This document shows positions 2-43,692 of a stretch of 64,000 nt of DNA, piece after piece. A program made the translations under genes and the position numbers. The DNA is from Pseudomonas sp. Leaf58. Its GTDB lineage: Bacteria; Pseudomonadota; Gammaproteobacteria; Pseudomonadales; Pseudomonadaceae. Under the pieces are notes generated by a model, which was not told the DNA's origin, did no database searches, and saw only the letters and a list, made by a program, of their open reading frames with translations. Location of the stretch: assembly GCF_003627215.1 (NCBI RefSeq), contig NZ_CP032677.1, positions 3,105,501-3,169,500 of the forward strand, read 5' to 3'. Position 1 is the first letter of the stretch, and the number at the start of each line of letters is the position of its first letter.

Positions 2-466
2 TATGCCTACGGCGGCGGCTGTGAACTGGCGATGCTCGCCGACCTGATCGTGGCCGGGCGCGGCGCGCGCTTCTGCCAACCGGAAATCCGCATTGGCATC
101 ATGCCCGGCATCGGTGGCACCCAGCGCCTGCTGAGGGCTGTAGGCAAGGTCAAGGCCATGCGCATGGCCCTGACCGGGCAGCCGATCAGTGCCGAGGAGG
201 CGTGGGTGGCCGGGCTGGTCAGCGACCTGGTCGACGATGACCAGGTGCAGGCCCACGCGCTGGAACTGGCGCGGGTGATTGCAGCGATGCCGGCGCTGGC
301 CGCCGAGCAGATCAAGGAAGTGATTTTGGCGGGGATGGATGCGCCACTGGACGCGGCCTTGGCGCTGGAGCGCAAGGCCAATGCGTTGCTGTTTGCCTCG
401 CGCGACCAGAAGGAAGGGATGCAGGCGTTTATCGAGAAACGGCCGGCGCGGTTTGAGGGGTGCTGA
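2..466 (+). CDS. Enoyl-CoA hydratase, C-terminal part (cut by window edge)
   Basis: The frame is open from the left edge, so only about the last 154 residues are visible. They show the crotonase fold: GGGCELAMLADLIVAG, then QPEIRIG and MPGIGGTQRL. The glutamate of GGGCE and the glutamate of QPE are 20 residues apart, as are the two catalytic glutamates of classical enoyl-CoA hydratase, so this should be a true hydratase adding water to 2-enoyl-CoA. It ends 131 bp before a convergent dehydrogenase gene, with a REP palindrome between. It probably belongs to the catabolic cluster on its right or to a CoA pathway further left; the substrate cannot be read from the sequence. Confidence 0.9.
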   Translation, partial: YAYGGGCELAMLADLIVAGRGARFCQPEIRIGIMPGIGGTQRLLRAVGKVKAMRMALTGQPISAEEAWVAGLVSDLVDDDQVQAHALELARVIAAMPALAAEQIKEVILAGMDAPLDAALALERKANALLFASRDQKEGMQAFIEKRPARFEGC

Positions 467-597: not shown

Positions 598-1365
598 TCA
601 GATCGACATCACCAACTGCCCGCTGTCGATTCGCAACTCCACCCCATTCACCGCCCGCGCCTCATCACTGGCCAGGTACAGCACACTGGCCGCCACATCC
701 TCGGGCAGGCACATGCGGTTCATCGGGTCGCTGTCGATGGTCAACCGGGCCGGGTCGACACCCTCGGGGAAGCCGCCACGGGTCATGTCGGTCAGCACGC
801 CGTCCGGATGCAGCGAGTTGCAGCGGATGCGATAGCGGCGCCGCCGGCACAACGCCGCTACCGAACGGGTCAACGCCGCCACCGCACCTTTCGAGGCGCT
901 GTAGGCCAAGTAATCGTCACGCCCGGCCAGGGCCGCCACCGACGACAGGTTGATGATCGACCCACCGTGCTGCTTCATCAGTGCGATACCTGCCCGGCAG
1001 CCGAGAAATACACTGGCGGCATTGACCCGCATCAGCCGGTCCCAGTCGCGCAGTTCGGTATCCTCGATGTTGCCGGGCTGCAGCATGCCGGCGTTGTTCA
1101 GCAAAATGTCCAGCCGGCCATGGCGCTCGGCGATCACGTCCATCACCCGCTGCCACTGCGCCTCATCACTGGCATCGTGAACAATGAAGCTGGCCGCCGG
1201 GCCAAGGGCTTCGGCCAAGGCCAGCCCGGCCTGTTCATCGATATCGCTGATCAGCACCTGGGCACCCTGCTCCACCAGCAGCCGTGCACTGGCCGCACCA
1301 ATACCCTTGGCGCCCCCGGTGACCAAGGCCACCTTGCCCTGCACCCGCCCGTTTCGTTCACTCAT
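598..1365 (-). CDS. Short-chain dehydrogenase/reductase (hydroxysteroid dehydrogenase-like)
   Basis: A 255-residue classical SDR. The glycine-rich cofactor motif TGGAKGIG is at about residues 16-23. An aspartate ends the second strand (LISDIDEQAG), which favours NAD over NADP. NNAG follows, then the catalytic serine in INLSSVAALAG and YxxxK in YSASKGA. It is the last gene of a minus-strand run and its ATG overlaps the stop of the upstream flavoprotein by 4 bp, so the two are translationally coupled. Next to two ketosteroid-dehydrogenase-type flavoproteins, a 3-hydroxysteroid or similar alicyclic alcohol dehydrogenase role is likely, but many SDRs look alike. Confidence 0.88.
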   Translation of the reverse strand: MSERNGRVQGKVALVTGGAKGIGAASARLLVEQGAQVLISDIDEQAGLALAEALGPAASFIVHDASDEAQWQRVMDVIAERHGRLDILLNNAGMLQPGNIEDTELRDWDRLMRVNAASVFLGCRAGIALMKQHGGSIINLSSVAALAGRDDYLAYSASKGAVAALTRSVAALCRRRRYRIRCNSLHPDGVLTDMTRGGFPEGVDPARLTIDSDPMNRMCLPEDVAASVLYLASDEARAVNGVELRIDSGQLVMSI

Positions 1366-3038
1366 GACGCCACCTCGCAGTCTGTGTTCAAACGTGCCCC
1401 GGCCACCACGGCTGCGCCGGCGCGACGCCCGGAGAACACGCAGTCGGCCAGTGACAGGCCACTGATATAAAGATGAGAAGGAATACCCAGCGCCGTGCGC
1501 CCGGCTGCAAACAGCCCGGCGATTGCCTGGCCAGCGTCATCCAGCACCGCGCCGCTTTGCTCGTCCACGCGCAGGCCCCCCAGGGTCAGCGCCCCCAGCG
1601 GGAAGATCGGGTTACCCACAGAAATGTCGCAGGCGTAGAACGGTGCCTGCTCCAACACCTGGCGCCCTGCCAATGACTTGCCGAACGGGTCCGCTGCCTG
1701 GCCGCGGGCGGCGGCGTTGTTGGCCAGCAATGCCTGGCGCAGGTGCTCGGCCTGCATGCCGGTGGTTTGCGCCAACTGCTGCACGGATTTGCCCTTGCGC
1801 GCGCCCAATAGCATCAACACCAATGCCGGCAACGCCTGGAACCACCAATAGCCACCGAACAACGCCTCGCGCAGGGCGCGCTTGCGCAGCGGCGCATCGA
1901 GCACCAGCCAGGCCTGCCCGCCCTGCTCTTCCATCAATGGCTGGCCAAGGGTGGCGCCATACACTTCTTCGTTGCAAAAACGCTCGCCGGCACGGTTGAC
2001 CACAATGCCCTTGTGCCAACTGTACGGTGGGTTGATGAAGCGCCAGGCCGATACCCGCTGCAGGCGGTCGCTGGCAGCGCCGACACTGTGGCCCAGGCGC
2101 AGGCCGCTGCCGTCGCAGCCGGTGGTGCCGACCTTGAAGTTGCGCCGAAACGCTGGCGCATGGGCCTTGATCAGTTCACGGTTGAAGATGAAGCCACCGG
2201 TGCTCAGGACCACCCCGTCCAGCGCCCGCACCAAGCAGGGCCTGGCGTGCTTGTGCTCAAGCGCGCTCAGCCGCCGGCGCAAGCGGTCGCAGTAGCCCGG
2301 CACGAAGTTCTGCAGGCGCTCGGCGCGCGCCGCCAAGCGGGCATGCTCGCGTGCCTCCTTGCTGCCCGGCGCCAGGCGCCACAACTCGGCGCCGATCACC
2401 CGCCCGGCAAGGTCGACCACCAGGCGCCTGGCCGCCGATTGCGGCAACGGCCGCACTCCGGCACGCAGGCAGGCCGCCTGCAGGTGGCCATACAGCACCG
2501 CACCGCATTGGCCCTTGCCGACCGTGCGATGACCGCGCGGCGCCGGCGCCTGTGCACCGCCGTAGGCCGGTACCAGTTCGTTGCCCGAGTAGTACAGGAA
2601 GGCCCCGTCGGGGGGGTACGAGGTTTTACCGCCGGGCGGCATCTGGTGCGCGAACGGTGCGCCGTGGCTTTCCAGCCATTGCAGGTTGGCGGCACTTTCG
2701 TCGCAGAAGCGCCGCAGCGTCTGGTCACTGACCACGCCTTGGGTTTCGTGCCGGAGGTAGTCGAACATCGCCTCGGGCGTGTCGGCAAAACCCGCCGCCT
2801 GCTGATGCCGCGTGCCACCACCGGCATACACCACGCCACCACTGCGGGCACTGGCCCCACCGCCATTGAAGCGGTCGGCGACCAGCACATCGGCACCTTG
2901 GGCGCGCGCTTGCAGCGCCGCGCACGCCCCGGCGGCGCCCCAACCGATCACCAGCACATCACACTGTGCCTGCCACTGCAGTGCAGCGGCGTCATTTACC
3001 TGCAGGGGTTCGAGAATCGGCGTGACGGTCGTGTTCAT
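1362..3038 (-). CDS. FAD-dependent 4(5alpha)-ketosteroid dehydrogenase-like flavoprotein
   Basis: A 558-residue protein of the FAD_binding_2 (fumarate reductase/KstD) family. The dinucleotide motif VIGWGAAGACAALQA is near residue 30, followed by GGGASARSGGVVYAGGG. The C-terminus carries LYISGLSLADCVFSGRRAG, a form I associate with 3-keto-5alpha-steroid 4-dehydrogenases and not with the YPGxG ending of Delta1-dehydrogenases. Such enzymes introduce a double bond next to a ring ketone and reduce FAD. It overlaps both neighbours by 4 bp, inside a tightly coupled trio with the SDR and the second flavoprotein. The family is sure; the exact regiospecificity is inferred. Confidence 0.82.
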   Translation of the reverse strand: MNTTVTPILEPLQVNDAAALQWQAQCDVLVIGWGAAGACAALQARAQGADVLVADRFNGGGASARSGGVVYAGGGTRHQQAAGFADTPEAMFDYLRHETQGVVSDQTLRRFCDESAANLQWLESHGAPFAHQMPPGGKTSYPPDGAFLYYSGNELVPAYGGAQAPAPRGHRTVGKGQCGAVLYGHLQAACLRAGVRPLPQSAARRLVVDLAGRVIGAELWRLAPGSKEAREHARLAARAERLQNFVPGYCDRLRRRLSALEHKHARPCLVRALDGVVLSTGGFIFNRELIKAHAPAFRRNFKVGTTGCDGSGLRLGHSVGAASDRLQRVSAWRFINPPYSWHKGIVVNRAGERFCNEEVYGATLGQPLMEEQGGQAWLVLDAPLRKRALREALFGGYWWFQALPALVLMLLGARKGKSVQQLAQTTGMQAEHLRQALLANNAAARGQAADPFGKSLAGRQVLEQAPFYACDISVGNPIFPLGALTLGGLRVDEQSGAVLDDAGQAIAGLFAAGRTALGIPSHLYISGLSLADCVFSGRRAGAAVVAGARLNTDCEVAS

Positions 3039-4756
3039 ACCCGCTCCCGGCGCTGTGCAGCGAGGTGGTTAGCCGCCACATAGGCAAAGGTCATGGCTGG
3101 GCCCAGGGTGCCACCGGCACCGGGGTAGCTGGTGCCCATCACCGAGGCGGAGCAGTTGCCGATGGCATACAGGCCGGCGATTGCCGAGCCATCTTCACGC
3201 ACCACCTGGGCCTGGGCATTGGTCAGCAGGCCGCCCTTGGTGCCGATATCGCCGGCATCCAGGCGCATGGCGTAGTACGGCCCCTTGCGCAGCGGGGCCA
3301 GGCACGGGTTGGGTTTAATGTTGCAGTCGCCATAGTAACGGTCGAACACATTGCCGCCGCGGCCGAAGTCCAGGTCGACCCCGCTGCGCGCATAGTCATT
3401 GACTTTGTCCACCGTACTGGCCAAGCCCTGCGCGTCGATGCCGATCTTGCCGGCCAGCGCCTCCAGGGTGTCGGCTTTCCAGTACAGGGTATCGCGCCAC
3501 TCTTTGCGTAACCGGCTGTCGGGCATGACTTGGGCCGGCATCAGCGGGCCCATGGCGTAGTTGAAGCGGAAGTGCCCGTCGAAAATCACCCAGGCCGGTA
3601 CCGAACGCCCGCCACTGCGCGTGTTATCGCGGTGCATGGCATCGACGAATTCCAGGTACGGCGCGGCCTCGTTGACGAAGCGCTGGCCGTGGCCATTGAC
3701 CACGATGGCGCCGGGGAACGCACGCTCGGCGAAAATGCCGCGCGGTTTGTCTTCACCCGGCACGGCGATGGTCGGCGCCCACCAGGCCCAGTCCATCAGC
3801 GCCGTGGCGGCGCCTTGGGCCAGGCCGGCCTGCAGCGCAGCACCGGTGTTGTTGCCCGGCGGCGTGGCGCTCCAGGCCATGCGCGTTGGCTTGGGCAAGT
3901 ATTGCTCGCGCAAGGCCTGGTTCTGCTCGAAGCCGCCAGAGGCCAGGATCACCCCGTGGCGGGCCTGCAGGTTGATGTCGCGGCCATCGCGGCACACCCG
4001 CACACCGGTGACCCGGCCGTGCTCCATCAGCAGCTCGCGGAAGTCGCTGTTCAACCACAGCGGTATGTTGCGGTCCATCAGCGAGCGGCGCAGCGAGCAC
4101 ACCAGCGAACTGCCCAGCGCAGCGCGGCGGTCGAAGCGGCTTTTGCGTCGCCATTTGAAGTCGAGTTTGTAGCGCAGCATCAACCGCAGGATCAACAGGC
4201 GCCAGCCAAAGCTGCGGGCCATGGCCTTGTGCGCATCGCGCGCGGTCCAGGCAATGCGCCCCATCAGCAGGGTCGACGGCGACGGCTTGCGCAGGTTGTC
4301 CAGTTCGGCGCCGAGCAGGCTGCTGTCGAACAGCTCCGGGTCAAGGGTGCGCCCGCCCGGCAAGGCACCGGGTAAGTGCGGGTAATAATCTGGGTATTTC
4401 GCCGCCACGGCATAGCGCACGCGGCTGCAGCGGGTCAACGCTTCGATCATTTTCGGGGCGTTGTCCAAGTAGGCCTGCAGGCGGGCCGGGTCGACTTGGC
4501 CGCCCGCAGCGGCATCGAGGTAGCGGCGTGCCTGCTCGACGCTGTCGTTGCCGCCCTGGCGCGCAAAGTAGTGGTTGTTGGGGATCCAGATGCCGCCCCC
4601 GGAGATGGCCGAGGTGCCGCCGAACTTGTCGCTCTTTTCCAGGACCAGCACGCTGAAACCCTGGTCGGCAAGAAACACCGCCGAGGTCATCGCACCGGCC
4701 CCCGAGCCGACCACTATCACGTCGTACTGGGTTTGAGACTGATCTTGAGCCGTCAT
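3035..4756 (-). CDS. 3-ketosteroid Delta1-dehydrogenase-like flavoprotein
   Basis: A 573-residue FAD enzyme when started at the ATG at 4756; the frame runs further up, but MTAQDQSQTQYDVIVVGSGA begins the normal FAD motif at once. Family features are VGSGAGAMTSAVFLA, GGTSAISGGGIWIPNN, and the C-terminal block GTKGGLLTN...GLYAIGN...SYPGAGGTLGPAMTFAY. The YPGxG tyrosine and glycine match the KstD active-site residues that stabilise the 3-keto enolate. It probably desaturates C1-C2 of a 3-ketosteroid or a related cyclohexanone. The start lies in a CAACAACAATG leader, a possible Crc/Hfq site, and a cluster-specific motif lies about 100 bp upstream. Confidence 0.85.
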   Translation of the reverse strand: MTAQDQSQTQYDVIVVGSGAGAMTSAVFLADQGFSVLVLEKSDKFGGTSAISGGGIWIPNNHYFARQGGNDSVEQARRYLDAAAGGQVDPARLQAYLDNAPKMIEALTRCSRVRYAVAAKYPDYYPHLPGALPGGRTLDPELFDSSLLGAELDNLRKPSPSTLLMGRIAWTARDAHKAMARSFGWRLLILRLMLRYKLDFKWRRKSRFDRRAALGSSLVCSLRRSLMDRNIPLWLNSDFRELLMEHGRVTGVRVCRDGRDINLQARHGVILASGGFEQNQALREQYLPKPTRMAWSATPPGNNTGAALQAGLAQGAATALMDWAWWAPTIAVPGEDKPRGIFAERAFPGAIVVNGHGQRFVNEAAPYLEFVDAMHRDNTRSGGRSVPAWVIFDGHFRFNYAMGPLMPAQVMPDSRLRKEWRDTLYWKADTLEALAGKIGIDAQGLASTVDKVNDYARSGVDLDFGRGGNVFDRYYGDCNIKPNPCLAPLRKGPYYAMRLDAGDIGTKGGLLTNAQAQVVREDGSAIAGLYAIGNCSASVMGTSYPGAGGTLGPAMTFAYVAANHLAAQRRERV

Positions 4757-4763
4757 TGTTGTT
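4756..4763 (-). promoter_or_regulatory. Possible Crc/Hfq (AAnAAnAA) site at the start codon
   Basis: On the minus strand AACAACAA runs directly into the ATG of the Delta1-dehydrogenase-like gene. This matches the A-rich motif bound by Hfq/Crc in pseudomonads to block translation during growth on preferred carbon sources. Confidence 0.5.
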
Positions 4764-4858
4764 GTGCCATTCGCTAAGGTCAGGGAGATGCCGCCAGCGC
4801 CATCGAGCCTTTGCCGGCGGCGGGCATCCCATGATCGGCGCTGGCCGACGGGCACTCA

Positions 4859-4875
4859 TCGTCAAAGCGGACTAG
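4859..4875 (+). promoter_or_regulatory. Cluster-specific element, copy 1 (TCGTCnAAnCGGACnAG)
   Basis: TCGTCAAAGCGGACTAG lies in the 141-bp gap between the amidase and the Delta1-dehydrogenase-like gene. It agrees at 14 of 17 positions with a copy in the divergent promoter near 8.03 kb. It is probably a regulator site giving the lower genes their own promoter. Confidence 0.5.
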
Positions 4876-4897
4876 GCGCCCGCCTACCCTGCTGGCG

Positions 4898-6478
4898 TTA
4901 CAGCACCGCCCTACGCGCGGCCCACGGGCGGTCCTGCTCCAACTGGCTGGCCAGGCGCAGCAGCACGTCCTCGCCGCCCAGCCGGGCGGTGAACAGCATG
5001 CCCACCGGCAAGCCGTTGTCGCTGTGCCCCAATGGCAGGGAAATCGCCGGCTGGCCACTGACGTTGGCCAGCACGGTGAAGCCGGCGCTGCCCATCGCCC
5101 GCTGGGCGTAGCTGTCCCACGGCTGGTCGAGGCTAAGCTGGCCCAACGCCGGGGTGAGGTTGGCCGTGACCGGCGACAGAATCACATCGAAACGGGCGAA
5201 CGGTTGCTCCATGGCCGCGCCAATGCGCTCGAAACTTTGCCGCGCGCGGTACATCGCCTCGCCATTGGTGGCGCGGGCGCGCTCCAGTACCACCTGGGTG
5301 ATCTGCTCCAGGTCGGCCGGGCCGGCTGCACGCCCCAGCAGCTGCTCGCGCTCGTGAACCAGGCTCGACAGCGCCGTGCCGATCACCGTGCCGTGGGCGC
5401 CGAACAATTCGCGCGGGTCCACCTTCAGTTGCAGCTCTTCAAGTTCATGCCCAAGGCCGAGCAACTGCTTGATCGTTTGTTCGAGGGTGGCAGCCACCGC
5501 CGCATCGAGTGGCGCCCCGGTCAGCGACTGGCGCACCACGGCCACCCGCAGCTTGCCCGGGGCACGCTGCAGTTCGTCTACATAGGGGCGCTCCAGAGGT
5601 GCGCTCCAGTAGGCACTGCCGGCCTCGTGCCCCTGCCCGGCATCGAGGAACAACGCGGTGTCACGCAACGTGCGCGATACCACGTTGCCGACGCTGGCGC
5701 CGAACCAGCCCTCGTAGTGCAGCGGGCCGCTGGGGGTGCGATAGCGGCTGGGCTTGAGCCCGACCAGGCCGCAGTACGACGCCGGGATACGGATTGAGCC
5801 ACCGCCGTCGGTGGCATGCGCCACCGGCACGATCCCGGCCGCCACCGCCGCAGCCGCACCGCCCGATGAACCACCGGCGCTCATGGCCAGGTTCCACGGG
5901 TTGCGGGTTTGCCCCCACAGCAGCGATTCGGTGGTGGTGGTCAGGCCGAACTCCGGGCAGGTGGTCTTGCCGAACGGCACCGCGCCGGCCTGCTCGTAGC
6001 GGGCGATCAGGGTACTGGTGACACTGGCCGGCGGCGCGTCGCGGAACAGCCTGCAACCATTGCTGGTGGGCGTGCCTTGCAGGTAAGTGTTGAGGTCCTT
6101 GAGCAGCAGCGGCACCCCGGCCAGCGCGCCCTTGGCGCTGTCACCGGCACTGCGCCGGCGGGCCAGCAAAGCCCGTGCATAATCCTCGTGCAGCATGTTC
6201 ACCGCCGCCACCCGGGGGTTGACGGCGGCATGCCGGGCCAGCGCCGCAGCCAGCAGCTCCTCGCCACTGAGGCGGCCAGCGCGCACCGCCTCGGCCATGG
6301 CCCAGGCGTCGAGGCTTTGATAGTCGGCTGGCGACAGACCGCTGCCAGCCGCGTCGGCAAAACGCCCTAGCAGGCCAACGCCCACGCCAACTGCGCTGGC
6401 TTTGAGCACGCTGCGCCGGGACCAACTGGCCGTGGTGTCGCTGGGGGTGGTGTGTGGGTCTGGGGTTTGGGTAGTCAT
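4898..6478 (-). CDS. Tat-exported amidase (amidase-signature family)
   Basis: A 526-residue protein started at 6478, which has AGGA seven bases upstream. A twin-arginine signal ([20 protein letters not shown]) predicts folded export to the periplasm. The Ser-cisSer-Lys triad of amidase-signature enzymes is visible: lysine in LLLKDLN, the cis-serine region [14 protein letters not shown], and the nucleophile region [15 protein letters not shown]. It would hydrolyse a C-N amide bond outside the cytoplasm. Its place in the ketosteroid-like cluster suggests that it releases the catabolic substrate from an amide conjugate, which is inference. An AACAATAA leader lies 14-21 bp upstream of the start. 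Confidence 0.9.
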
Positions 6479-6491
6479 GGCGTCCTGTTCT

Positions 6492-6499
6492 TTATTGTT
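6492..6499 (-). promoter_or_regulatory. Possible Crc/Hfq site in the amidase leader
   Basis: AACAATAA on the minus strand, just upstream of the ribosome-binding site of the amidase gene, fits the AAnAAnAA Hfq/Crc motif. Confidence 0.5.
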
Positions 6500-6510
6500 G
6501 TGATTACGCA

Positions 6511-7947
6511 TCAGTCGGCAGTGACCTGGGCCAGCATGGCGGCGAGGTAATGCTCGCCGTAGGGCGGCAGCAGCCCCCATTCACGGCGCGGGTCGTGCCC
6601 TGGCGCCTGGAACACGCTGCGCGGGTGGCTGAATTCCAGGAAACCCTCACGACCGTGATAATGCCCCATGCCCGAGGCGCCCACACCCCCGAACGGTGCG
6701 TCGTGCAGCGCTGCATGCATCATCACGTCGTTAAGCGTGACGCCGCCAGACAGGGTGTGGGCGAGTACCCGCTGTTGCTCGTGCAGGTCGTCGCCAAAGT
6801 AGTACAGCGCCAGCGGCCTGGGCCGGCTGTTGATCTGGGCGATCACCTCGTCCAAGGCGTCATAGGCCAGCACTACCAGTGCCGGGCCAAAAATCTCCTC
6901 GTGCATGATGTGCGCCTGCGCGGGCGGGTTGACCACCACCTGCAACGGCCGGCGGCGCTCACCCGCGGCCCCGGGGGCGACCGCGGGCATCGCTTCGATG
7001 CGCGCGCCGAGTGCCTGCGCGTCCTGCACCAGTGCATCGACCCGCGCCAGGTGCCGGGCATTGACCACCGCGACTACGTCTGGGTTATCGGCAACGGTCG
7101 GGTTGAACGCACAGTAGGCGCTGCGCAACTCGGCGACAAAGCCTTCCAAGGCAGCACGGGGCACATAGACCAGGTCTGGGTTGATGCAGATCTGCCCGGC
7201 GTTGGTGGCCTTGGCCAGCGCAACGCTGAAGGCCGCCTTGGCCAGGTCGGCAGTGGCCGACACGATCACCGGCGACTTGCCACCCAGCTCCAGGGTCACC
7301 GGCACCAGGTTTTTCGAGGCATTGGCCATTACCAGGCGGCCCACCGCGGTGCTGCCGGTGAACACCAGGTGGTCGAACGGCTGAGCGGTGAAGGCTTCGG
7401 CAAGGTCCGGCCCACCGGTCACTACCGCCACCTGCAGCGGGTCGAGGTGCGCAGCGCACAGTTCGGCAACCAACGCAGCGGTGCGCGGCAGCACTTCCGA
7501 AGGCTTGAGGATAGCCCGGTTGCCAGCGGCCAGGGCCGACGCCAACGGGCTGAACAAGGTGTACAGCGGGGCGTTCCAGGTGCCAATGATGCCCACCGAG
7601 CCTTTGGGCTGGTAACGCACCCAGGCCTTGGCACCCAACTGGTCGTAGGGCGCGAACGGTTGCCGTTGGTCATCGGCCATCCACTGCTGCAGATGGTCCC
7701 TGGCGTGCTTGAGGCTGGCCAGGGCGCCGATCACATCGTTCATTAGCGTAAAGCCGGCAGGCCGGCCACCAAAGTCTTCGTCAATGGCCTGGGTCAGGAC
7801 TGCATGGTGGCGCACCAGCAGGTCGATCACCTGCTGCAGGCGCTGGCGACGGCACTCGGCACTGACCGCACCCTCGGCAGCGAAGGCGCTTTTTTGCCGC
7901 GTTAACAGGGCGCAAAGCGCCTCGACCGATGACGGAGCGGGTTGCAT
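6511..7947 (-). CDS. Coniferyl-aldehyde-dehydrogenase-type NAD(P) aldehyde dehydrogenase
   Basis: A 478-residue aldehyde dehydrogenase. The general-base glutamate lies in VTLELGGKSP and the catalytic cysteine in NAGQICINPD. The length and the N-terminal helical segment fit the CalB (coniferyl aldehyde dehydrogenase) subgroup, which oxidises aromatic, terpenoid or long-chain aldehydes to acids. The start has a GGAG site about 8 bp upstream. It is the first gene of the minus-strand run and faces the flavin reductase gene across a 186-bp shared promoter region. The amidase begins 32 bp downstream, so they are probably one transcript. Confidence 0.9.
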   Translation of the reverse strand: MQPAPSSVEALCALLTRQKSAFAAEGAVSAECRRQRLQQVIDLLVRHHAVLTQAIDEDFGGRPAGFTLMNDVIGALASLKHARDHLQQWMADDQRQPFAPYDQLGAKAWVRYQPKGSVGIIGTWNAPLYTLFSPLASALAAGNRAILKPSEVLPRTAALVAELCAAHLDPLQVAVVTGGPDLAEAFTAQPFDHLVFTGSTAVGRLVMANASKNLVPVTLELGGKSPVIVSATADLAKAAFSVALAKATNAGQICINPDLVYVPRAALEGFVAELRSAYCAFNPTVADNPDVVAVVNARHLARVDALVQDAQALGARIEAMPAVAPGAAGERRRPLQVVVNPPAQAHIMHEEIFGPALVVLAYDALDEVIAQINSRPRPLALYYFGDDLHEQQRVLAHTLSGGVTLNDVMMHAALHDAPFGGVGASGMGHYHGREGFLEFSHPRSVFQAPGHDPRREWGLLPPYGEHYLAAMLAQVTAD

Positions 7948-8021
7948 AGGTGTCTCCTCTGGCTATGAGGTGCGCCCGATGCGCACGGCGCCACACTAGC
8001 CATGGCGCCGGGGTTGGCGCC

Positions 8022-8070
8022 TCGTCCAATCGGACCAGAATCGAGCAAAAGCGTTAGTCCGTTGAGACGA
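8022..8070. promoter_or_regulatory. Divergent promoter region with two cluster-specific elements
   Basis: TCGTCCAATCGGACCAG at 8022-8038 contains the palindrome GTCC-AATC-GGAC. A second copy in inverted orientation (TCGTCTCAACGGACTAA on the minus strand) covers 8054-8070. Together with the copy at 4859 they suggest one dedicated regulator for the cluster. The pair sits between the aldehyde dehydrogenase and flavin reductase genes, so it could control both. Confidence 0.55.
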
Positions 8071-8133
8071 TGCCTGGCAAGGCCTGGCGGCCAATACTGA
8101 GGCCACGAAAAAGCCACCCGCAAGAGGCCAGCC

Positions 8134-9117
8134 ATGGCAACCCAACAGATCGGTTTTGACCCTCAGGCCTTCCGGGCCGCACTCGGCACCTTTACCACCG
8201 GCGTCACCATCATCACCTCCCAGGCCGATGACGGCACGCCGGTTGGCATTACCGCCAACAGCTTCAACTCGGTGTCGCTGAACCCGCCGCTGGTGCTGTG
8301 GAGCCTGTCCAAGCAGGCCCGTAGCCTACCGGCGTTCAGCAACGGCAAGCACTGGAACGTGCATGTGCTGTCGATCGAACAGGAAAAACTGTCTGGCCGC
8401 TTCGCCACCCAGGGCGAGGATAAGTTTGCCGAAATCGAACTGGATAACGGCATCAGCGATGCCCCGCTGCTGCAGGACTGCACTGCGCGCTTTCAGTGCC
8501 GCACGGCCTTCCAGTACGAGGGCGGCGACCATGTGATCTTCGTTGGCGAGGTGCTGGCCTTCGACCACAGCGACCGCGCGCCGCTGGCCTTCCAAAGCGG
8601 CCAGTACGCCCTGGCCACGCGCAAACCACGCAGCGAGCTGCGCCTGGCGACCACGCCACCGCCGCCCGAATGCAGCTACACCGAAGACTTGCTGGGTTAC
8701 CTGCTGGGCCGTAGCCATTACCAGGTGCTCAACCAATTGCGCCACCTGCTGAGCAACCGCCAGCTGGATGAACAGGCCTTCTTCGTCCTGGCCGTGTTGT
8801 CGATCCGTGACGACCTGAGCCTCGAAGAACTCAACACCTTCGTCAGCTACACCGGCCACGTGGTCACCCTGGCCGGCATGCGCTTCCTCGAACGCCAGGG
8901 CCTGGTGGCCATTGAAGGCGCTGCCGGGCAGCCGCGCTTCGTGCTCACGGCTGATGGCCGCGAGCTGTCGTTGCAGCAAGTAGCCCTGGCCAAGGTGGTG
9001 GAGGAGGAACTCATCGCCAAACTGGGCGAAGCCGATGCGCACATGCTCAAGGTACTGCTCAAGCGCTTGATCGTGGTCAGTGACCCCGGCTTGCCCGACC
9101 TGTGGGCGCCGCGATGA
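8134..9117 (+). CDS. Flavin reductase fused to a MarR-like C-terminal domain
   Basis: A 327-residue protein in two parts. Residues 1 to about 165 are an HpaC-type flavin reductase (FRALGTFTTGVTIITS, GITANSFNSVSLNPPLVLWSL, HVLSIEQEKLSGRFA), which reduces FMN or FAD with NAD(P)H for a partner monooxygenase. Residues from about 185 to the end resemble a MarR-type winged helix (NQLRHLLSNRQLDEQAFFVLAVL, GMRFLERQGLVAIEG). The reductase C1 of Acinetobacter p-hydroxyphenylacetate hydroxylase has the same layout, where the extra domain gates activity by substrate binding. The matching monooxygenase is not in this window. The MFS gene overlaps its stop by 4 bp. Confidence 0.87.
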   Translation: MATQQIGFDPQAFRAALGTFTTGVTIITSQADDGTPVGITANSFNSVSLNPPLVLWSLSKQARSLPAFSNGKHWNVHVLSIEQEKLSGRFATQGEDKFAEIELDNGISDAPLLQDCTARFQCRTAFQYEGGDHVIFVGEVLAFDHSDRAPLAFQSGQYALATRKPRSELRLATTPPPPECSYTEDLLGYLLGRSHYQVLNQLRHLLSNRQLDEQAFFVLAVLSIRDDLSLEELNTFVSYTGHVVTLAGMRFLERQGLVAIEGAAGQPRFVLTADGRELSLQQVALAKVVEEELIAKLGEADAHMLKVLLKRLIVVSDPGLPDLWAPR

Positions 9118-10448
9118 GCAGCGCCGCGCCGACCCTGCCGGCGACGAGGGTCGGCTGGCGCAGCCATGGCCTGTTGCTGCTGATGGCGGCGGTGTTCGCC
9201 GACAACTTCGTTGGCCGGCAGATCCTGGCGGTGATGTTCGAGCCGATCAAGGCCGAGTTCGGCGTGGGCGATAGCGCGTTAGGGTTGATTTCGGGCCTGG
9301 CGTTCGCCGCCGTCTATGCCCTGCTCGGCCTGCCCGCCGGGCGCCTGGTCGACCGCCTGCCGCGGGTGCGCCTGCTGGCTGTGGCCTGCCTGCTGTGGGC
9401 GCTGGCGACGATGCTGTGCGGGCTGGCGGGCAGCTTTCTGGTGCTGGCCCTGGCGCGCATGCTGGTGGCAGTGAGCGAAGCACCGACCACCTCGGCGTCG
9501 CTGTCGCTGATCGCCGACCTGTACCCGCCGCAACGGCGCTCGTTCGCCATCAGTTGCTTCACCGCTGCGCCGACGTTCTCGTCGATCATCGGCCTGAGCA
9601 TCGGTGCCTGGGTGGTCGAGCAATATGGCTGGCGCACGGCGTTTGTCGCCTTGGGCCTGCCTGCCCTGGTATTTGCCGCCACGCTTGGGCTGCTGGTGCG
9701 TGAACCAGCACGCGGCCGCTGGGACCTGAGCGCCCACCCTGCCCCTGCAGTGCGCCTTGGCCTGCGCGCCGAAGCCTCCGCGCTGTGGGCGTTGGCGCCG
9801 TATCGCTGGCTGATTGTCGCCGGTGGGCTGACCACGCTGGGCTCCTACGCCGTGGCCATGTGGAATACCAGCTTCCTGGTGCGCTCCCATGGCCTGTCGC
9901 TACAGGACGCCGGCATCCTCGCTGGCGTGGTCTGCGGCAGCGCTGCCGGGGTTGGCGGGCTGTTCAGCGGCTGGCTGAGCGACCGCCTGGGCCGCCGCGC
10001 CGCACACTGGCAACTGTCGCTGCCCATGTTCGGCCACCTGGCGGCGCTTTCGGCGTTGATCAGCTACCTGTTGTGGCCCAGCGACCTGCTGCTCACCCTC
10101 GGTGCCCTGCCGGTACCGGCGGCCATGCTCTGGTGTGCGCTGTACAGCTTCTTTGCGGTGTGGTGGGTCGCGCCGTCGTACAACCTGGTGACGCAACTGG
10201 TCCCGCCCCAGCGGCGCGGCACGGCGATGGCCTTGCAGACTATCGTTAGCACCCTGCTGGGCGTAGGTGTCGGCCCCTTGCTGACGGGCCTGCTCAGCGA
10301 CCTGCTGCAACCGCTGTACGGCGTGCAATCGCTGCGTTATGCGTTGCTGCTGGTCAGCCTGCCGGTGCTGGGTGCGGTGCTGCTGTTGCTGCGCACGTCG
10401 CTGCATGTGACGGGGCAAGCCCGGCCAGCGGCCTTGCCCGTGGAGTAA
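9114..10448 (+). CDS. MFS transporter
   Basis: A 444-residue major facilitator protein with about 12 hydrophobic segments. The start at 9114 overlaps the flavin reductase stop (ATGA); an in-frame ATG 12 bp earlier is possible. The loop after helix 2 reads LPAGRLVDRLPRVRLL, a GxxxDRxxRR-like motif, and the second half has FSGWLSDRLGRRAAHW. The family includes aromatic-acid and other organic-acid importers. Its coupling to the flavin reductase suggests it imports the substrate of the cluster, or an intermediate made by the periplasmic amidase. The solute cannot be deduced. Confidence 0.88.
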   Translation: MSSAAPTLPATRVGWRSHGLLLLMAAVFADNFVGRQILAVMFEPIKAEFGVGDSALGLISGLAFAAVYALLGLPAGRLVDRLPRVRLLAVACLLWALATMLCGLAGSFLVLALARMLVAVSEAPTTSASLSLIADLYPPQRRSFAISCFTAAPTFSSIIGLSIGAWVVEQYGWRTAFVALGLPALVFAATLGLLVREPARGRWDLSAHPAPAVRLGLRAEASALWALAPYRWLIVAGGLTTLGSYAVAMWNTSFLVRSHGLSLQDAGILAGVVCGSAAGVGGLFSGWLSDRLGRRAAHWQLSLPMFGHLAALSALISYLLWPSDLLLTLGALPVPAAMLWCALYSFFAVWWVAPSYNLVTQLVPPQRRGTAMALQTIVSTLLGVGVGPLLTGLLSDLLQPLYGVQSLRYALLLVSLPVLGAVLLLLRTSLHVTGQARPAALPVE

Positions 10449-10455: not shown

Positions 10456-11202
10456 TCAGCGCGGGCGCTGGGCGAAGGCGGCGATGGCGGTTTGCGCCGC
10501 CGGTGCCTGCAACAGCGTGGCAAAGGCTTGTGCCTCGGCGTTGATGCGGGCGCTCACTTCAGCCTGCATGCCCAGCTTGAGCAGGCGCTTGGTCTGAATG
10601 AGGGCGGCGGATGGCTTTTGCGCAAGTTTGTGCGCCTGGGCCAATGCCCAAGCCTGCACTTCAGCCGCAGGCAACAGGCGGTTGACCCACCCTGCCTGTA
10701 GCGCAAAATCGGCATCGAAGGGCTCGCCGGTCATCAGCGCTTCGGCCGCCACCTGGTAGCCCAGCAACCTTGGCAGAAGCAAGGTCGATGCCCCCTCGGG
10801 GCACACCCCAAGGTTGACGAACGGCAAGCTGAAGCGTGCGTCGGTGGCGGCGTAGACCAGGTCGCAGTGCAACAGCAAGGTGCTGCCGATACCCACTGCC
10901 AGCCCACAGACTGCCGCCACCAGCGGTTTGGGGAAGTCATTCAGGGCATGCAGCAACTGCCACACCGGGGCATGCGCCGCCAAGGGCGGAAACTCGATGA
11001 AATCATTGAGGTCGTTGCCTGCCGAAAACACCGAGGCACTGCCCTGCAGCACGACAGCGTGGATGTCGTTGGCATGGGCGGCGCTTTCGAGGATTTGCCT
11101 GAGCGCTTGGTACATCGGGGTAGTGAAGGCGTTCTTGCGGGCTGGGCGGTTGAAGGTGACCACCAGGACGCCTGCGGTTTGCTGGGTAAGGATCTCGTGC
11201 AT
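10456..11202 (-). CDS. Enoyl-CoA isomerase/hydratase-like crotonase
   Basis: A 248-residue crotonase. The oxyanion region SAGNDLNDF and the block VGIGSTLLLHCDLVYAA are present. Both hydratase glutamates are missing: the GGGCE position reads GIGST and the QPE position reads LPFVNLG. A glutamate follows in GVCPEGAST, the arrangement of Delta3,Delta2-enoyl-CoA isomerases. It therefore more likely moves a double bond than adds water. It converges on the MFS gene with only 7 bp between stops. A weak relative of the cluster motif lies upstream (11272-11285), which may make it a member of the same regulon. Confidence 0.85.
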   Translation of the reverse strand: MHEILTQQTAGVLVVTFNRPARKNAFTTPMYQALRQILESAAHANDIHAVVLQGSASVFSAGNDLNDFIEFPPLAAHAPVWQLLHALNDFPKPLVAAVCGLAVGIGSTLLLHCDLVYAATDARFSLPFVNLGVCPEGASTLLLPRLLGYQVAAEALMTGEPFDADFALQAGWVNRLLPAAEVQAWALAQAHKLAQKPSAALIQTKRLLKLGMQAEVSARINAEAQAFATLLQAPAAQTAIAAFAQRPR

Positions 11203-38941: not shown

Positions 38942-40756
38942 TCAGCTTTGCGGCTTGGCGCTCGCCGTTTGCGCCTTGGCATCGGCGGCCTGCTGCAATT
39001 GCTTGGGCAGTTTGAAGGTCCAGAGCATGCCGCCCTGGTTGAAGTCCTTGACCCGCTTGGCCACTTCGCCGCCCCACAGCGGCACCGCGCCGCCCCAGCC
39101 GGAGACCACCGAAACGTATTGCTCGCCATCCATTTCCCAGGTCACTGGCGAACCGAGCACACCGGAACCGGTCTGGAATTCCCAGACCTTGTCGCCAGTC
39201 TTGGCGTTGAACGCCTGCAGGAAACCTTCTGGCGTGCCGGTGAACACCAGGTTGCCCTTGGTGGTCAGCACCCCGCCCCACAGCGGCGCGTAGTTCTTGT
39301 GGCGCCACACTTCCTTGCCACTGACCGGGTCGATGGCGCGCAGCACGCCGATGTAGTCTTCGTTGAGCGGCTTGATGGTGAAGCCGGCACCGAGGAACGC
39401 CGCGCCCTTCTTGTAGGCGATGCCTTCGTTCCAGATGTCCATGCCCCACTCGTTGGACGGCACGTAGAACAGCCCGGTGTCCTTGTTGTAGGCCATGGGC
39501 ATCCAGTTTTTGGCGCCGAGGAAGGCTGGGGCGACGAACACCGAACTGCCCTTGGCCTCGCTACCCGGCGCCCCCGGCCGGCTGGCCTCGTTGTAGATCG
39601 GCCGGCCGTCCTTGTCCAGGCCGGTGGCCCAGGTGATCTTGTCGACGAACGGGAAGCCACGGATGAACTTGCCGTTGGTGCGGTCCAGCACGTAGAAGAA
39701 GCCATTGCGGTCGGCGGTGGCCGCAGCCTTGACCTCTTTGCCGCCGTCCTTGTAGTTGAACGAGATCAGCTCGTTGACGCCGTCGAAGTCCCAGCCGTCA
39801 TGGGGTGTGCTCTGGAAGTGCCATTTGATGGTGCCATCGTCCGGGTTAAGGGCCAGGCGGGACGAGGAATACAGGTTGTCACCGGGGCGCAGGTGCGAGT
39901 TCCACGGTGCCGGGTTGCCGGTGCCAAACAGGATCAGGTTGGTTTCCGGGTCGTAGTAGCCACCCAGCCAAGGTGCGGCGCCGCCGGTCTTCCACAGGTC
40001 GCCGGGCCAGGTTTTGCCCGCTTCGCCGCCCGAAATACCGTTTTCGATCGCCTTACCGTCCTTGTACACGTAGCCCATGTGCCCTTCCACAGTGGGGCGC
40101 ATCCACAGCAGCTCGCCGTTTTCCGGGTTGTAGGCCTGGATCTTGCCCACCACGCCAAACTCGCCGCCCGCCACGCCGGTGATCAGCTTGCCGTTGACGA
40201 TCATTGGCGCGGCGCTGATGGAATAGCCTTCCTTGTGGTCGGCCACCTTCTTGCTCCAGACCACCTTACCGGTGTCCTTGTTCAGCGCCACCAGCTTGGC
40301 GTCCAGGGTGCCGAAGAACACCAGGTTGCCGTACAGCGCCACGCCGCGGTTGATCACGTCGCAGCACGGGCGGATGTCATCGGGCAGGCGGGCATCGTAT
40401 TGCCACAGTTTTTTGCCGGTGCGGGCATCCACGGCGAACACCCGCGAGTAGGAGCCGGTCAGGTACATCACCCCGTCCTTGATCAGCGGCTGGGCCTGCT
40501 GGCCGCGCTGCTTCTCACCGCCGAAGGAAAACGCCCACACCGGCCGCAGGTCCTTGACGTTGTCGGTATTGAGCATATTCAGCGGGCTGTAGCGCTGGCC
40601 CTGTACGCCCAGGCCGTTGGTCACGATCTGCTGCGGGTTTTTCGGGTCCTGGAGGATTTCTTCATTGCTGACAGCGGCGTGGGCCGCGCCGGCAAGCAGC
40701 ATGGCGCTGAGCACCAGGCTCACGGCGAACACGGGACGGCGTGGGGATCGGGTCAT
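38942..40756 (-). CDS. pedH: Lanthanide-type PQQ alcohol dehydrogenase PedH
   Basis: A 604-residue periplasmic quinoprotein with a signal peptide ([19 protein letters not shown]). The eight-bladed propeller carries the vicinal disulfide [11 protein letters not shown] and the metal site [11 protein letters not shown]. The second aspartate, two residues after the catalytic one, is the extra ligand of lanthanide-dependent enzymes; the paralogue PedE has serine there. It oxidises alcohols and aldehydes and passes electrons to a cytochrome c. Start at 40756 follows a CAACAAAAAACC leader, a possible Crc/Hfq site. Confidence 0.95.
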
Positions 40757-40772
40757 GACGGCTACCTTTGGT

Positions 40773-40780
40773 TTTTTGTT
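40773..40780 (-). promoter_or_regulatory. Possible Crc/Hfq site in the pedH leader
   Basis: AACAAAAA on the minus strand, 17-24 bp before the pedH ATG, fits AAnAAnAA. Confidence 0.45.
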
Positions 40781-40864
40781 GTATCCGGGAAAATTTCCCG
40801 GTGTGCCGAGAATTCTTGGTCGCGACCTGCTTGCCAACAATTGCCCGCAGTGCGGAGTTTTCTA

Positions 40865-40879
40865 GTTCCTTGGTATCAG
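40865..40879. promoter_or_regulatory. Ped-region motif upstream of pedH
   Basis: GTTCCTTGGTATCAG contains the CCTTGGTA core of the recurring element, about 110 bp before the pedH start and touching the stop of the upstream hydrolase gene. Confidence 0.45.
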
Positions 40880-41835
40880 TGAACTTGCTCGACCCCTGTG
40901 GGCGCTGGCTTGGCGTCGACGCGCCGCAGCTGTTGGCGCTCGTAGCGCGGATACAAGTGGCTGACACTGCGAATCAACTCATAACGGGTCAGGCTGATAC
41001 CGGCAAAGCGCTCCGGGATCGGGCTGCGAATCATCTCGGCCATGTCGTCGCCCCGCGCCGCCCCATCGCGCATCAGGCCGTCCAGCCAGCCCAGGTAATC
41101 ACGCATCTGCGCGAACGGCCGGGTATCGCTGGCCACCGGCCCATGCCCTGGCACAAGCTGCTTCCAGGGCAACGCTTGGAGGGTGTCCAGGTCTTTCAGC
41201 CAAACCTCCAGCCCCGGGCTGTTGGGCGTGGTCAGCGCCCGCTCGTAGAACACCAGGTCGCCGGCGAATAGCACGCCGGTACGTTCATCCAGAATCGCCA
41301 GGTCGGCACCGGTATGCCCACCCAGCGCCAGCAGCCGCAGCCGATGCCCGCCAACCTCATGGACGCCCGGGTCCAGCACCCGGGTCGGCAGCACCACCTC
41401 GGTACCGCGCATCCAGTCGCCCACCAGGCGGTACATGTTCTCGGCCATGGCCTCGCCCTGCTGGCGCAACAGTTCGCCGCTGCCCGCCAGGGCGCCGATA
41501 GGCACATCGGCAAAGGCCTGATTGCCCAGCACATGGTCGGGGTGGTGATGGGTCAGCAGCACCTCCAGCACCGGCTTGTCGGTGGTGGCGGCAATGGCCT
41601 GGCGCAAGGCTTCGCCGTAGCGTTTGGAAGGCCCGCTGTCGATCACCACCACGCCGCTGTCAGTGACGATGAACGCGGTATTGACGATGTTGCCCCCGTT
41701 GGCCTTGGCGAAATTGTCAGTGCTGCCCTCGAGCAGCCAGGTGCCCTCGGCGATTTGCCGGGGCTTGAGCCGATAGTCCAGGTCTGCCTGTGCCGACAGG
41801 CCCAGGCACAGCAGCAACAGCAAGGTCCAACGCAT
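40876..41835 (-). CDS. Quinoprotein-associated metallo-beta-lactamase-fold hydrolase
   Basis: A 319-residue exported protein (signal WTLLLLLCLGLSAQA). The zinc motif THHHPDHVLGNQAF and later GGHTGADLA and PGHGPVASD are those of the MBL fold. The family is found with PQQ dehydrogenases and SoxYZ-like carriers (quinoprotein relay hydrolases, related to SoxH). The reaction is not established; it may act on a product or adduct carried by the adjacent SoxYZ-like protein. It ends 119 bp upstream of pedH. Confidence 0.9.
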   Translation of the reverse strand: MRWTLLLLLCLGLSAQADLDYRLKPRQIAEGTWLLEGSTDNFAKANGGNIVNTAFIVTDSGVVVIDSGPSKRYGEALRQAIAATTDKPVLEVLLTHHHPDHVLGNQAFADVPIGALAGSGELLRQQGEAMAENMYRLVGDWMRGTEVVLPTRVLDPGVHEVGGHRLRLLALGGHTGADLAILDERTGVLFAGDLVFYERALTTPNSPGLEVWLKDLDTLQALPWKQLVPGHGPVASDTRPFAQMRDYLGWLDGLMRDGAARGDDMAEMIRSPIPERFAGISLTRYELIRSVSHLYPRYERQQLRRVDAKPAPTGVEQVH

Positions 41836-41876
41836 GACGGGCGCCTCGGGTCAGGAAGTGATAGGGGACAAGGTGC

Positions 41877-42638
41877 TCAAGGCACCGCCGCCTCGAACTG
41901 GTTGCCGCTGTTGTCCTGCAACACCAAACGGGTCGGCCCGGGGCCCTGGATGTCGAAGCCCAGGTTGGGGTTTTCGCTGACTGCCGGATACAGCTCAAGG
42001 CTGGCCAGGCGCTGGCCGTTGGCGCCTTGCAACTCGGCATGGTTGAGGAAAAATTCGGGAATGCCGCTGACCAGGCCGTTGTCCATCGGGTGCGCCACCT
42101 GCAAGCGCAAACGGCTGCTGTCGCCGCGTGGGTAGCGCCCGCCCAGCACTTCGCCGAGGTGTTCCTCCCAGCCGGGTTGGCTGCGTACCACACTGGGTGC
42201 GGTGCAACCGCCGCCGGCGGCATCGATCAGGGTTGAGCCGACATGCCACAGGCCGTCGCGTGTCAGCACCGCGGCGCGCAGCGGCGTGGCCTGTTCGATG
42301 CGGATGCGGATCGACAACCAGGGCAGCACCCGCTCGCCGGGCGCGAAGTCGACAATGCGCGGCAGCGGGTTAAGCTCGGCCCAGGCCACAATCCGCACCA
42401 CTTCGCCAGTGAACGCCCGGGCGTCGATTTCCAATGGCATTTGGCGGGCGTCCTCGGCAAACGGGGGTGCCAGCAGCTTGACCCGGTCATCGAAGACGAA
42501 AGCCGCCTGGCCCAGCAGCTGCTTGTGATAGAAGTCCCACATCACCGACGGCACCGGGTCTGGCTTGGCACTGGGTTCGCTGGCCTGGGCTGCCCACGGC
42601 AGCCAGCAGGCCAGCAGGAAACTTGCTCGCCAGTTCAT
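41877..42638 (-). CDS. Quinoprotein-associated SoxYZ-like carrier
   Basis: A 253-residue periplasmic protein with signal FLLACWLPWAAQA. It resembles a SoxY domain fused to a SoxZ domain: the carrier cysteine lies in AAGGGCTAPSVV, and the C-terminal half (LRLQVAHPMDNGLVSGIPEF) is SoxZ-like. In sulfur oxidation SoxYZ holds intermediates on a cysteine; here, beside PQQ dehydrogenases, the cargo is unknown. It is followed 41 bp later by the MBL hydrolase, its usual partner. Confidence 0.88.
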   Translation of the reverse strand: MNWRASFLLACWLPWAAQASEPSAKPDPVPSVMWDFYHKQLLGQAAFVFDDRVKLLAPPFAEDARQMPLEIDARAFTGEVVRIVAWAELNPLPRIVDFAPGERVLPWLSIRIRIEQATPLRAAVLTRDGLWHVGSTLIDAAGGGCTAPSVVRSQPGWEEHLGEVLGGRYPRGDSSRLRLQVAHPMDNGLVSGIPEFFLNHAELQGANGQRLASLELYPAVSENPNLGFDIQGPGPTRLVLQDNSGNQFEAAVP

Positions 42639-42683
42639 AACCCACTCCTGTTGTTCAACACAGCACTAACGGACTGCGCAGGG

Positions 42684-42776
42684 CCCCTGTAGGAGCGGGT
42701 TTACCCGCGAAGAATGCAACGCGGGGCATGGCACCGGCTTCGCCGGTGTTCGCGGGTGAACCCGCTCCCACAGAGG
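42684..42776. repeat. REP inverted pair
   Basis: CCCTGTAGGAGCGGGTTTAC at its left and the inverse GTGAACCCGCTCCCACAG at its right frame a short GC-rich spacer with a further hairpin (CACCGGCTTCGCCGGTG). It separates the substrate-binding protein gene from the SoxYZ-like gene. Confidence 0.85.
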
Positions 42777-42816
42777 GTTGTGTTGCCCTTACGACCCCAC
42801 AGGCCTGGGCAATTTG

Positions 42817-43692
42817 TTATTGGTACATCTCCGGCACCTCGTAACGCAGGCCGTAATGGGCATACATAGCCTTCAGCCGGCCATCGCGAATCATCGCCTC
42901 GAGGGCTTCCTCCACCGCATAGGCCAACTGCCGGTTGCTCTCGTGCACCGCCATGCCGATCTCCCAGGCCTGCTTGCCAAGGTTCGGGTAGGCGTTTTCC
43001 GCCAGTGCCAGTTGCGGGTCGGCGGCTTGGTGCAACTGCCAGTCCACCTCACCGCGCATCGCCATCACCGCGTCCACTTGCCCAGCCTGCATGGCGCCGA
43101 ATGCCTGCTGCACATTGGGGTAATGATGGGTTTTGGCGCTGAGCATGCCGTTGAACACCGAGGTCAGGTAGAACGACGGCACGCTGTCCACCTCGACACC
43201 GATGGGGTGCTGCTGGAACACCGCGACACTGGCCACAGATTCCATGCGCCGGCGGTCATAGGCGACCTGCCAGCGCTCCTCCTGGTAGGGGCCGAACATC
43301 ACCACCTGGGCGTTTTCCAGCTCACCCAGCTCGTTACGCCGCTGCGCGTAGGCGTGGTCGTACGGCACGCGCATCATCAGGTCGGCCAGCTGCTGGTGGC
43401 GCAGCGGGCTGCCGCGCCAAATGTAGTCACGCAAGTCGTCGTCGAGCTTTTCCCCAGGCGGCGCCCAGATCAGCTGCAAGCGCACCCCCAAGGCCGTGGC
43501 CAGGGCTTGCGCCAGCTCGACATCGACACCGCGCGGCTGGCCATGGTCCTCGAAGCTGTAGGGTGCGAAATCCTTGTACACCGCCACTTTCAGCTCGCCG
43601 GCAGCGATGATCGCATCGTAGTTGCGCACCTGCGCCTGGGCCGCCGCGCAACACAGCAGCAGGCCACTCAACAGCACCGCCAACAGGCGCAT
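42817..43692 (-). CDS. Periplasmic substrate-binding-like protein of the ped cluster
   Basis: A 291-residue protein started at 43692 with signal LLAVLLSGLLLCCAAAQAQ. It is an SBP_bac_3-type fold: AAGELKVAVYKDFAPYSFED, GVDVELAQALATALGVRLQL and AMQAGQVDAVMAMRGEVDW. In methylotrophs a like protein (MoxJ/XoxJ) beside the dehydrogenase assists its activation; here it follows pedF by 5 bp and is probably such a helper. It is likely the gene called pedG in some descriptions. Confidence 0.88.
   Translation of the reverse strand: MRLLAVLLSGLLLCCAAAQAQVRNYDAIIAAGELKVAVYKDFAPYSFEDHGQPRGVDVELAQALATALGVRLQLIWAPPGEKLDDDLRDYIWRGSPLRHQQLADLMMRVPYDHAYAQRRNELGELENAQVVMFGPYQEERWQVAYDRRRMESVASVAVFQQHPIGVEVDSVPSFYLTSVFNGMLSAKTHHYPNVQQAFGAMQAGQVDAVMAMRGEVDWQLHQAADPQLALAENAYPNLGKQAWEIGMAVHESNRQLAYAVEEALEAMIRDGRLKAMYAHYGLRYEVPEMYQ

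Follow-up and report, generated by a model that had tools for sequence, protein, structure and literature searches.

A probable steroid A-ring oxidation cluster of Pseudomonas sp. Leaf58 and the catabolic island, very probably equipped for bile acids, in which it lies

Introduction

The window analysed here is a stretch of 64,000 nucleotides (positions 3105501–3169500) of the 6.34-Mb, two-contig genome of Pseudomonas sp. Leaf58. Near its left end, at 598–9117, are genes for a short-chain dehydrogenase (SDR), two flavoproteins, an amidase, an aldehyde dehydrogenase and a flavin reductase, with an adjoining gene for a major facilitator superfamily (MFS) transporter. A first-pass annotation had listed this gene set, all of which is found, and had read it as a cluster for the oxidation of the A-ring of a steroid or an alicyclic ketone.

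The steroid reading is supported in the main, by a tree of the flavoproteins and by ring-cleavage genes to the left of the window. We conclude that the cluster very probably forms the right-hand end of a Pseudomonas island for 9,10-seco steroid catabolism, equipped for bile acids. The degradation of bile acids and hormones that reach the environment by excretion is a practical concern.

The two flavoproteins

The first flavoprotein, KstD, has as its best solved match the 3-oxosteroid 1-dehydrogenase 7p18 (719 bits over residues 42–601), which is from a different organism and which we take to be AcmB of Sterolibacterium. In a midpoint-rooted tree of 30 rows it clusters with 7p18, 4c3x and 11 KstDs of the named loci described below (96/93), and four paralogues from the same genome fall outside. 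The rows for 4c3x and 4at0 in this tree were pieced together from local alignments (two matches in the case of 4c3x) and have long branches. The tree sets KstD apart from the four paralogues, which are its sole non-steroid comparison, and does not prove the substrate. Residues Y157, Y400, Y577 and G581 of KstD align with the active site of KstD1, presumably Tyr119, Tyr318, Tyr487 and Gly491. We rejected these residues as proof of KstD function, because the paralogues retain three of the four: the last three are kept in all four paralogues, the counterpart of Y157 in one.

The paralogues are found at L032:14251-17754, L034:12468-14180 and L035:12999-14672, and are 34–37% identical to the KstD of the window. 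KstD-like genes at 2.14–2.25 Mb were considered as the main steroid cluster and rejected, the stretches around them (a part-annotated region) showing no steroid set; by eye, shikimate-dehydrogenase-like and other genes lie nearby.

The second flavoprotein is TesI-like. The 3-ketosteroid Delta4-5alpha-dehydrogenase 4at0 is the sole solved chain that it matches below 1e-40 (185 bits, in two stretches). Its residues Y360, Y524 and S526 align with the active-site Tyr, Tyr and Ser of 4at0, which we take to be Tyr319, Tyr466 and Ser468. The TesI-like rows cluster with 4at0, across the midpoint root from the KstD clade. Such a phylogeny had been proposed as a check on the steroid reading, and it places each flavoprotein beside its solved counterpart. 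Judged by these similarities, the protein is a probable 3-ketosteroid Delta4(5alpha)-dehydrogenase. Its gene is the only FAD_binding_2 gene of the island besides KstD. A search of plasmids with the protein gave 19 records, all below 60% identity.

The island to the left of the window

The 100 kb to the left of the window was read as loci L041, L040, L039, L038 and L031. The window cluster forms the right-hand end of a large island, very probably for 9,10-seco steroid catabolism. From a KshA gene (L040:13020-14060, near 3.039 Mb) as far as the MFS gene of the window, the island spans about 77 kb. The first-pass annotation was right in seeing an A-ring cluster and too narrow in its extent, this cluster being merely one end of the island. 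It had also suggested a search for ring-cleavage genes to the left, and KshA, HsaA and HsaC-like genes are present there.

The product of the KshA gene is a Rieske oxygenase, and its match to the KshA C-terminal domain reaches 219.5 bits, against a cut-off of 23.3. An HsaA-type oxygenase, for which HsaA is the best model (368 bits), lies beside a ligase of the FadD3 family (687 bits against a cut-off of 657) and a reductase that is the KshB candidate, the best model of which is PaaE-like (244 bits, cut-off 421). The island also holds an HsaC-like extradiol dioxygenase, an HsaD counterpart seen as an alpha/beta hydrolase only, and a 4-hydroxy-2-oxovalerate aldolase, which scores 552 bits where 229 is the cut-off. 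The case for ring cleavage depends on KshA and HsaA; KshB, HsaC and HsaD rest on context. The flavin reductase had been assigned to an unseen monooxygenase. This partner is most likely the HsaA homologue at L038:4650-5867, at a distance of about 37 kb from the KstD gene and 42 kb from that of the flavin reductase.

Two aldolases of the thiolase fold are also present. The C5 aldolase (L038:17452-18663) matches 9MYR with 632 bits and the C3-type aldolase (L031:14515-15711) matches 6ok1 with 545 bits. In PMC12329534, 9MYR is the complex CtShyDUF35-CtSal, an aldolase for the C5 side chain of bile acids, and 6ok1 is TcChsH2DUF35-TcLtp2. Near each aldolase is a DUF35 protein with a hydratase-type domain, and ChsH2-type zinc-ribbon and OB domains are found in L038:16502-17446 and L031:17245-18228. 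We read these genes as homologues of the Sal (C5) and Ltp2/Sal2 (C3) aldolases with putative DUF35 partners, as expected for the bile-acid side-chain pathway. A CoA ligase gene (L031:9181-10995) has steroid-24-oyl-CoA synthetase as its best model (365 bits). The island further contains DUF1302, DUF1329 and MMPL proteins, thiolases, and several acyl-CoA-dehydrogenase-like genes that were recognised by reading.

Conservation of gene order

A KstD query of genome contigs gave 102 confirmed stretches, of which the best 80, that is the most KstD-like, were examined; these are largely from Pseudomonas. The counts below are lower bounds within the 80, since some stretches end at contig ends. They were taken from the tblastn table; greedy calling of open reading frames (ORFs) misses genes behind antisense frames. 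The closest named loci, also from Pseudomonas, have KstDs with 94–95% identity.

The SDR is represented in 67 of the 80 loci, the flavin reductase in 63, the aldehyde dehydrogenase in 60 and the TesI-like protein in 57, followed by the amidase (42/80), the MFS transporter (40/80) and HsaA (24/80). KstD, TesI and SDR genes are contiguous in all 47 loci that have the three. The HsaB, aldehyde dehydrogenase, amidase and KstD genes have the order and strands of the window in 40 of the 40 loci with all four. The grouping is more than chance. All 42 amidase loci are from Pseudomonas, and 41 of them have the aldehyde dehydrogenase; in the exception (L079) the contig starts about 3.5 kb before KstD. 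Relatives of the amidase (57–66%) are nevertheless listed from Massilia, Collimonas and Pandoraea.

In five Pseudomonas loci (L065, L067, L070, L074 and L075) a same-strand gene of about 550–590 amino acids lies within the operon, between the aldehyde dehydrogenase and the amidase. Its start resembles by eye a methyl-accepting chemotaxis protein, and it is perhaps a chemoreceptor tied to steroid use.

Contrary evidence, assignments by place and alternative readings

Several observations weigh against a bile-acid island. KstD scores below the NCBIfam cut-offs of both 3-ketosteroid 1-dehydrogenase models (582/788 and 569/789 bits). The solved KstD 7p18 also falls below them (543/788 and 567/789 bits), therefore the missed cut-offs do not exclude membership, and we rejected them as a membership test; they are a naming threshold and not a property of the activity. 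HsaA misses its cut-off of 450 bits, and the steroid-24-oyl-CoA synthetase match misses its cut-off of 750. The HsaC-like dioxygenase scores 276 bits with HsaC (cut-off 450) and 273 with a biphenyl-diol model, a near tie. The best NCBIfam model for the aldehyde dehydrogenase is the benzaldehyde dehydrogenase MdlD (282/550 bits). The flavin reductase scores 133 bits with the HsaB model (cut-off 230), its best model being the p-hydroxyphenylacetate hydroxylase reductase (219 bits, cut-off 340). The nearest solved relative of the amidase is a nylon-oligomer hydrolase (6-aminohexanoate cyclic dimer hydrolase, 3a2p, 285 bits), and two of its listed relatives (P0031 and P0100) are named nylon-oligomer hydrolase. 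Neither a 5beta-Delta4 enzyme nor a 3alpha-hydroxysteroid dehydrogenase (HSD) was identified, though no sequence search aimed at the latter was made.

It is possible, if the less likely case, that the amidase is a general amide or oligomer hydrolase which merely sits in the operon; this concerns the amidase alone and is compatible with a bile-acid island. Among the 80 named loci, 38 lack the amidase in the stretch examined, and 19 of these 38 do have the aldehyde dehydrogenase. Against this reading, the place of the amidase is fixed between the aldehyde dehydrogenase and KstD wherever the four-gene order was scored. Moreover, the gene at the corresponding place in Pseudomonas stutzeri Chol1 (C211_RS11020) is entered as a bile salt amidase in Table 1 of PMC8399759, which covers characterised and predicted genes. 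An assay of the Pseudomonas amidase was not found in the excerpts of PMC8399759 or PMC12882949. The earlier guess of an amidase for bile-acid conjugates agrees with the Chol1 entry. By its family, its place and its twin-arginine translocation (Tat) type leader the protein is a candidate bile-salt amidase.

Place also bears on the neighbouring genes. The aldehyde dehydrogenase sits between HsaB and the amidase, like Sad in the published locus-tag order of Chol1, and the flavin reductase corresponds in place to the HsaB of Chol1. The agreement of the gene order with the Chol1 tags (PMC8399759) is our ground for naming the aldehyde dehydrogenase as probably Sad and for treating the amidase as a candidate bile-salt amidase.

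The cluster might instead degrade only androgen-like or other steroids that lack a bile-acid side chain, with the amidase and aldehyde dehydrogenase serving something else. TesI is described as a 5alpha-Delta4 enzyme (PMC8399759), the SDR is nearest to a 3beta/17beta-HSD, and the stretches of three Marinobacterium loci (L114, L118 and L119) have KstD, TesI, SDR and FadD3 without amidase or aldehyde dehydrogenase. We consider this improbable, given the relatives of both the C5 and the C3 aldolases in the island, the DUF35 proteins near them and the best model of the CoA ligase; in addition, sad, sal and shy homologues are tied to strains predicted to degrade cholate as well as testosterone (PMC4810484).

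A cyclic ketone other than a steroid, for example 4-oxocyclohexanecarboxylate, is very improbable as the substrate of the flavoproteins: the 4-oxocyclohexanecarboxylate and 4-oxocyclohexene-carboxylate dehydrogenase models (ChcC1 and ChcC2) do score 373 and 352 bits on KstD, and the four paralogues with three retained active-site residues include some with shikimate-dehydrogenase-like genes nearby (by eye), but the two models score nearly equally on 7p18 (350 and 350 bits) and hence discriminate poorly, the steroid models are the best for KstD and likewise higher on 7p18, and KstD groups with 7p18 and 4c3x in an island with KshA, HsaA and Sal homologues. Of the two rings first proposed, the steroid is favoured and the alicyclic ketone is the weaker.

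Proposed pathway and the 5beta-Delta4 step

In a bile-acid pathway the amidase, exported via Tat, would act outside the cytoplasm and split conjugates with glycine or taurine. The 3-ketone would then be formed by a hydroxysteroid dehydrogenase; the SDR of the window may serve 3beta- or 17beta-hydroxyls, and for bile acids a 3alpha-HSD is needed. The TesI-like enzyme and KstD would insert the Delta4 and Delta1 double bonds. Sal/Shy would cut the C5 side chain, and the aldehyde product would be oxidised by the aldehyde dehydrogenase (Sad). Ring B would be opened by KshAB, the aromatised ring A hydroxylated by HsaA with the flavin reductase HsaB, and ring A opened by the extradiol dioxygenase and the hydrolase.

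The SDR and the two flavoproteins had been credited with the three activities needed to form a 1,4-dien-3-one from a saturated 3-hydroxy ring. An SDR and the probable Delta4 and Delta1 flavoproteins are present, but by themselves they do not explain how bile-acid breakdown would begin. The nearest solved chain to the SDR is the 3beta/17beta-HSD 1hxh (240 bits, 180 for the next chain), so there is no clear sign that the SDR is the 3alpha-HSD required for bile acids. TesI is described as a 5alpha-Delta4 enzyme and mammalian bile acids are 5beta (PMC8399759), so the Delta4 step presents the same difficulty. The stereochemistry at C3 and C5 that the window enzymes would accept is predicted from such relatives.

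PMC8044976 reports that P. stutzeri Chol1 has just one 5beta-Delta4-KSTD1 homologue, that this is neither active nor needed, and that enzymes as yet unknown, probably of another protein family, must exist. No large Old Yellow Enzyme (OYE) gene of the 5beta-Delta4-KSTD type is present inside the island. The OYE family has nine places genome-wide, two of them within the island with open frames of 399 and 471 amino acids. Four OYE genes that are large by size (667–705 amino acids) lie elsewhere in the genome.

It seems improbable that the TesI-like flavoprotein supplies the missing 5beta-Delta4 activity on bile acids. Co-occurrence was counted in a separate sample of 80 genomes, made up of 77 KstD-positive genomes among 390 drawn from the order (that of the window included) and three added by hand (G002, G015 and G021). 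At E ≤1e-60, TesI relatives are present in 36 of the 80 and Sal relatives in 12, eight of the latter being close (≥57% identity) and four near 40%. A TesI relative is lacking from three of the eight close-Sal genomes, and a close Sal relative from 31 of the 36 TesI genomes. A coupling of the TesI-like gene to bile-acid use gains no support from these counts.

In two genomes of the same genus, G021 (L050) and G002 (L051), a TesI relative (52%) and a KshB-like gene lie close together in an arrangement unlike that of the window; L051 also has an SDR and part of an HsaA-like gene. There is no Sal relative at E ≤1e-60 in either genome.

Gene layout of the window

The features at the left end of the window are given in Table 1. 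The 4-bp overlaps reported in the first-pass annotation are real, one between the SDR and the TesI-like flavoprotein and one between the latter and KstD, and the genes from aldehyde dehydrogenase to SDR may be co-transcribed. The two flavoproteins score 129 and 281.5 bits with the FAD_binding_2 model.

Table 1. Features at the left end of the window, with strand and supporting matches.
Feature	Position	Strand	Match or remark
ECH1, enoyl-CoA hydratase gene, 3' part	2..466	+	PF00378 144 bits; next island gene
SDR, hydroxysteroid-dehydrogenase-like	598..1365	-	PF13561 194 bits
TesI-like FAD flavoprotein, probable 3-ketosteroid Delta4(5alpha)-dehydrogenase	1362..3038	-	FAD_binding_2
KstD, 3-ketosteroid Delta1-dehydrogenase	3035..4855	-	FAD_binding_2; 7p18 719 bits
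Amidase-signature hydrolase with Tat-type leader, candidate bile-salt amidase	4898..6580	-	PF01425 (Amidase) 300 bits; K161, S238 and S262 align with the Lys-Ser-Ser triad of 3a2p
Aldehyde dehydrogenase, probable Sad (steroid aldehyde dehydrogenase)	6511..7947	-	PF00171 (Aldedh) 276 bits
HsaB/TesA1-type flavin reductase with C-terminal extension	8134..9117	+	PF01613 (Flavin_Reduct) 129 bits; divergent
MFS transporter	9102..10448	+	PF07690 (MFS_1) 157 bits
ECH2, second enoyl-CoA hydratase, right edge, membership unsure	10456..11202	-	PF00378 162 bits

Two listed starts probably need revision. For KstD the listed ORF opens with a GTG at 4855, but homology is seen only from residue 42 onwards and codon 34 is the first ATG, which makes the ATG at 4756 the probable true start. 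The listed amidase ORF runs 70 bp into the aldehyde dehydrogenase ORF. ATGs at codon 24 (6511, leaving a 1-bp overlap) and codon 35 (6478) remove this overlap, one of these is probably the true start, and both keep the twin-arginine leader. The Tat amidase of the first-pass annotation is borne out as far as the leader, from which export would follow.

The entire ECH1 gene is at L031:19164-19967 and is present in 49 of the 80 named KstD loci. Four named loci from Pseudomonas (L058, L059, L067 and L073) have a 60–70% relative of ECH2 next to the MFS gene.

Two further observations concern other parts of the sequence. Several copies of one short frame (VRSPLGALF or VGSPLGALF ... PSQAMRQGCNPPGTG ...) are present both at L031:6113-7641 and at 58092-59094 of the window, which suggests a dispersed repeat. 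At 38942-53913 the window has, by eye, a cluster of alcohol-dehydrogenase type with a large periplasmic dehydrogenase, cytochrome-like and ABC genes.

Comparison with known systems

Steroid pathways are found in some P. putida strains and not in others, and the gene sets split into cholate-plus-testosterone and testosterone-only types (PMC4810484). The island is a further example of an already described kind of Pseudomonas steroid cluster. It adds another Pseudomonas with a steroid and, very probably, bile-acid catabolic island, and its order eases the study of the Tat-type amidase and of the 5beta Delta4 enzyme.

In the tes cluster of Comamonas testosteroni the Delta1- and Delta4(5alpha)-dehydrogenase genes (TesH and TesI; PMC8399759) are adjacent, as they are here, a likeness of gene arrangement only. 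The window differs in adding an SDR after the flavoproteins and an amidase and aldehyde dehydrogenase before them.

The cholate degrader P. stutzeri Chol1 shares the order HsaB, Sad, amidase and KstD, compared by published tags alone, and the island has homologues of Sal, Shy, KshA, HsaA and CoA ligases. The Chol1 tags are RS11005 (HsaB), RS11010 (Sad), RS11020 (bile salt amidase), RS11025 (HsaA), RS11030 (KstD), RS11040 (KshB) and RS11045 (StdA3) in Table 1 of PMC8399759. This order agrees with that of two P. fragi loci (L091 and L093), which have HsaB, aldehyde dehydrogenase, amidase, HsaA, KstD, TesI, SDR, KshB and FadD3. Two differences from Chol1 are seen. The TesI-like gene is beside KstD here, whereas the Delta4-5alpha gene of Chol1 (RS11110) lies between acyl-CoA dehydrogenase genes (RS11105 and RS11115). 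HsaA, KshB and FadD3 form a block about 37 kb from KstD, unlike in Chol1 and unlike in the 24 of the 80 named loci that have HsaA in the KstD stretch.

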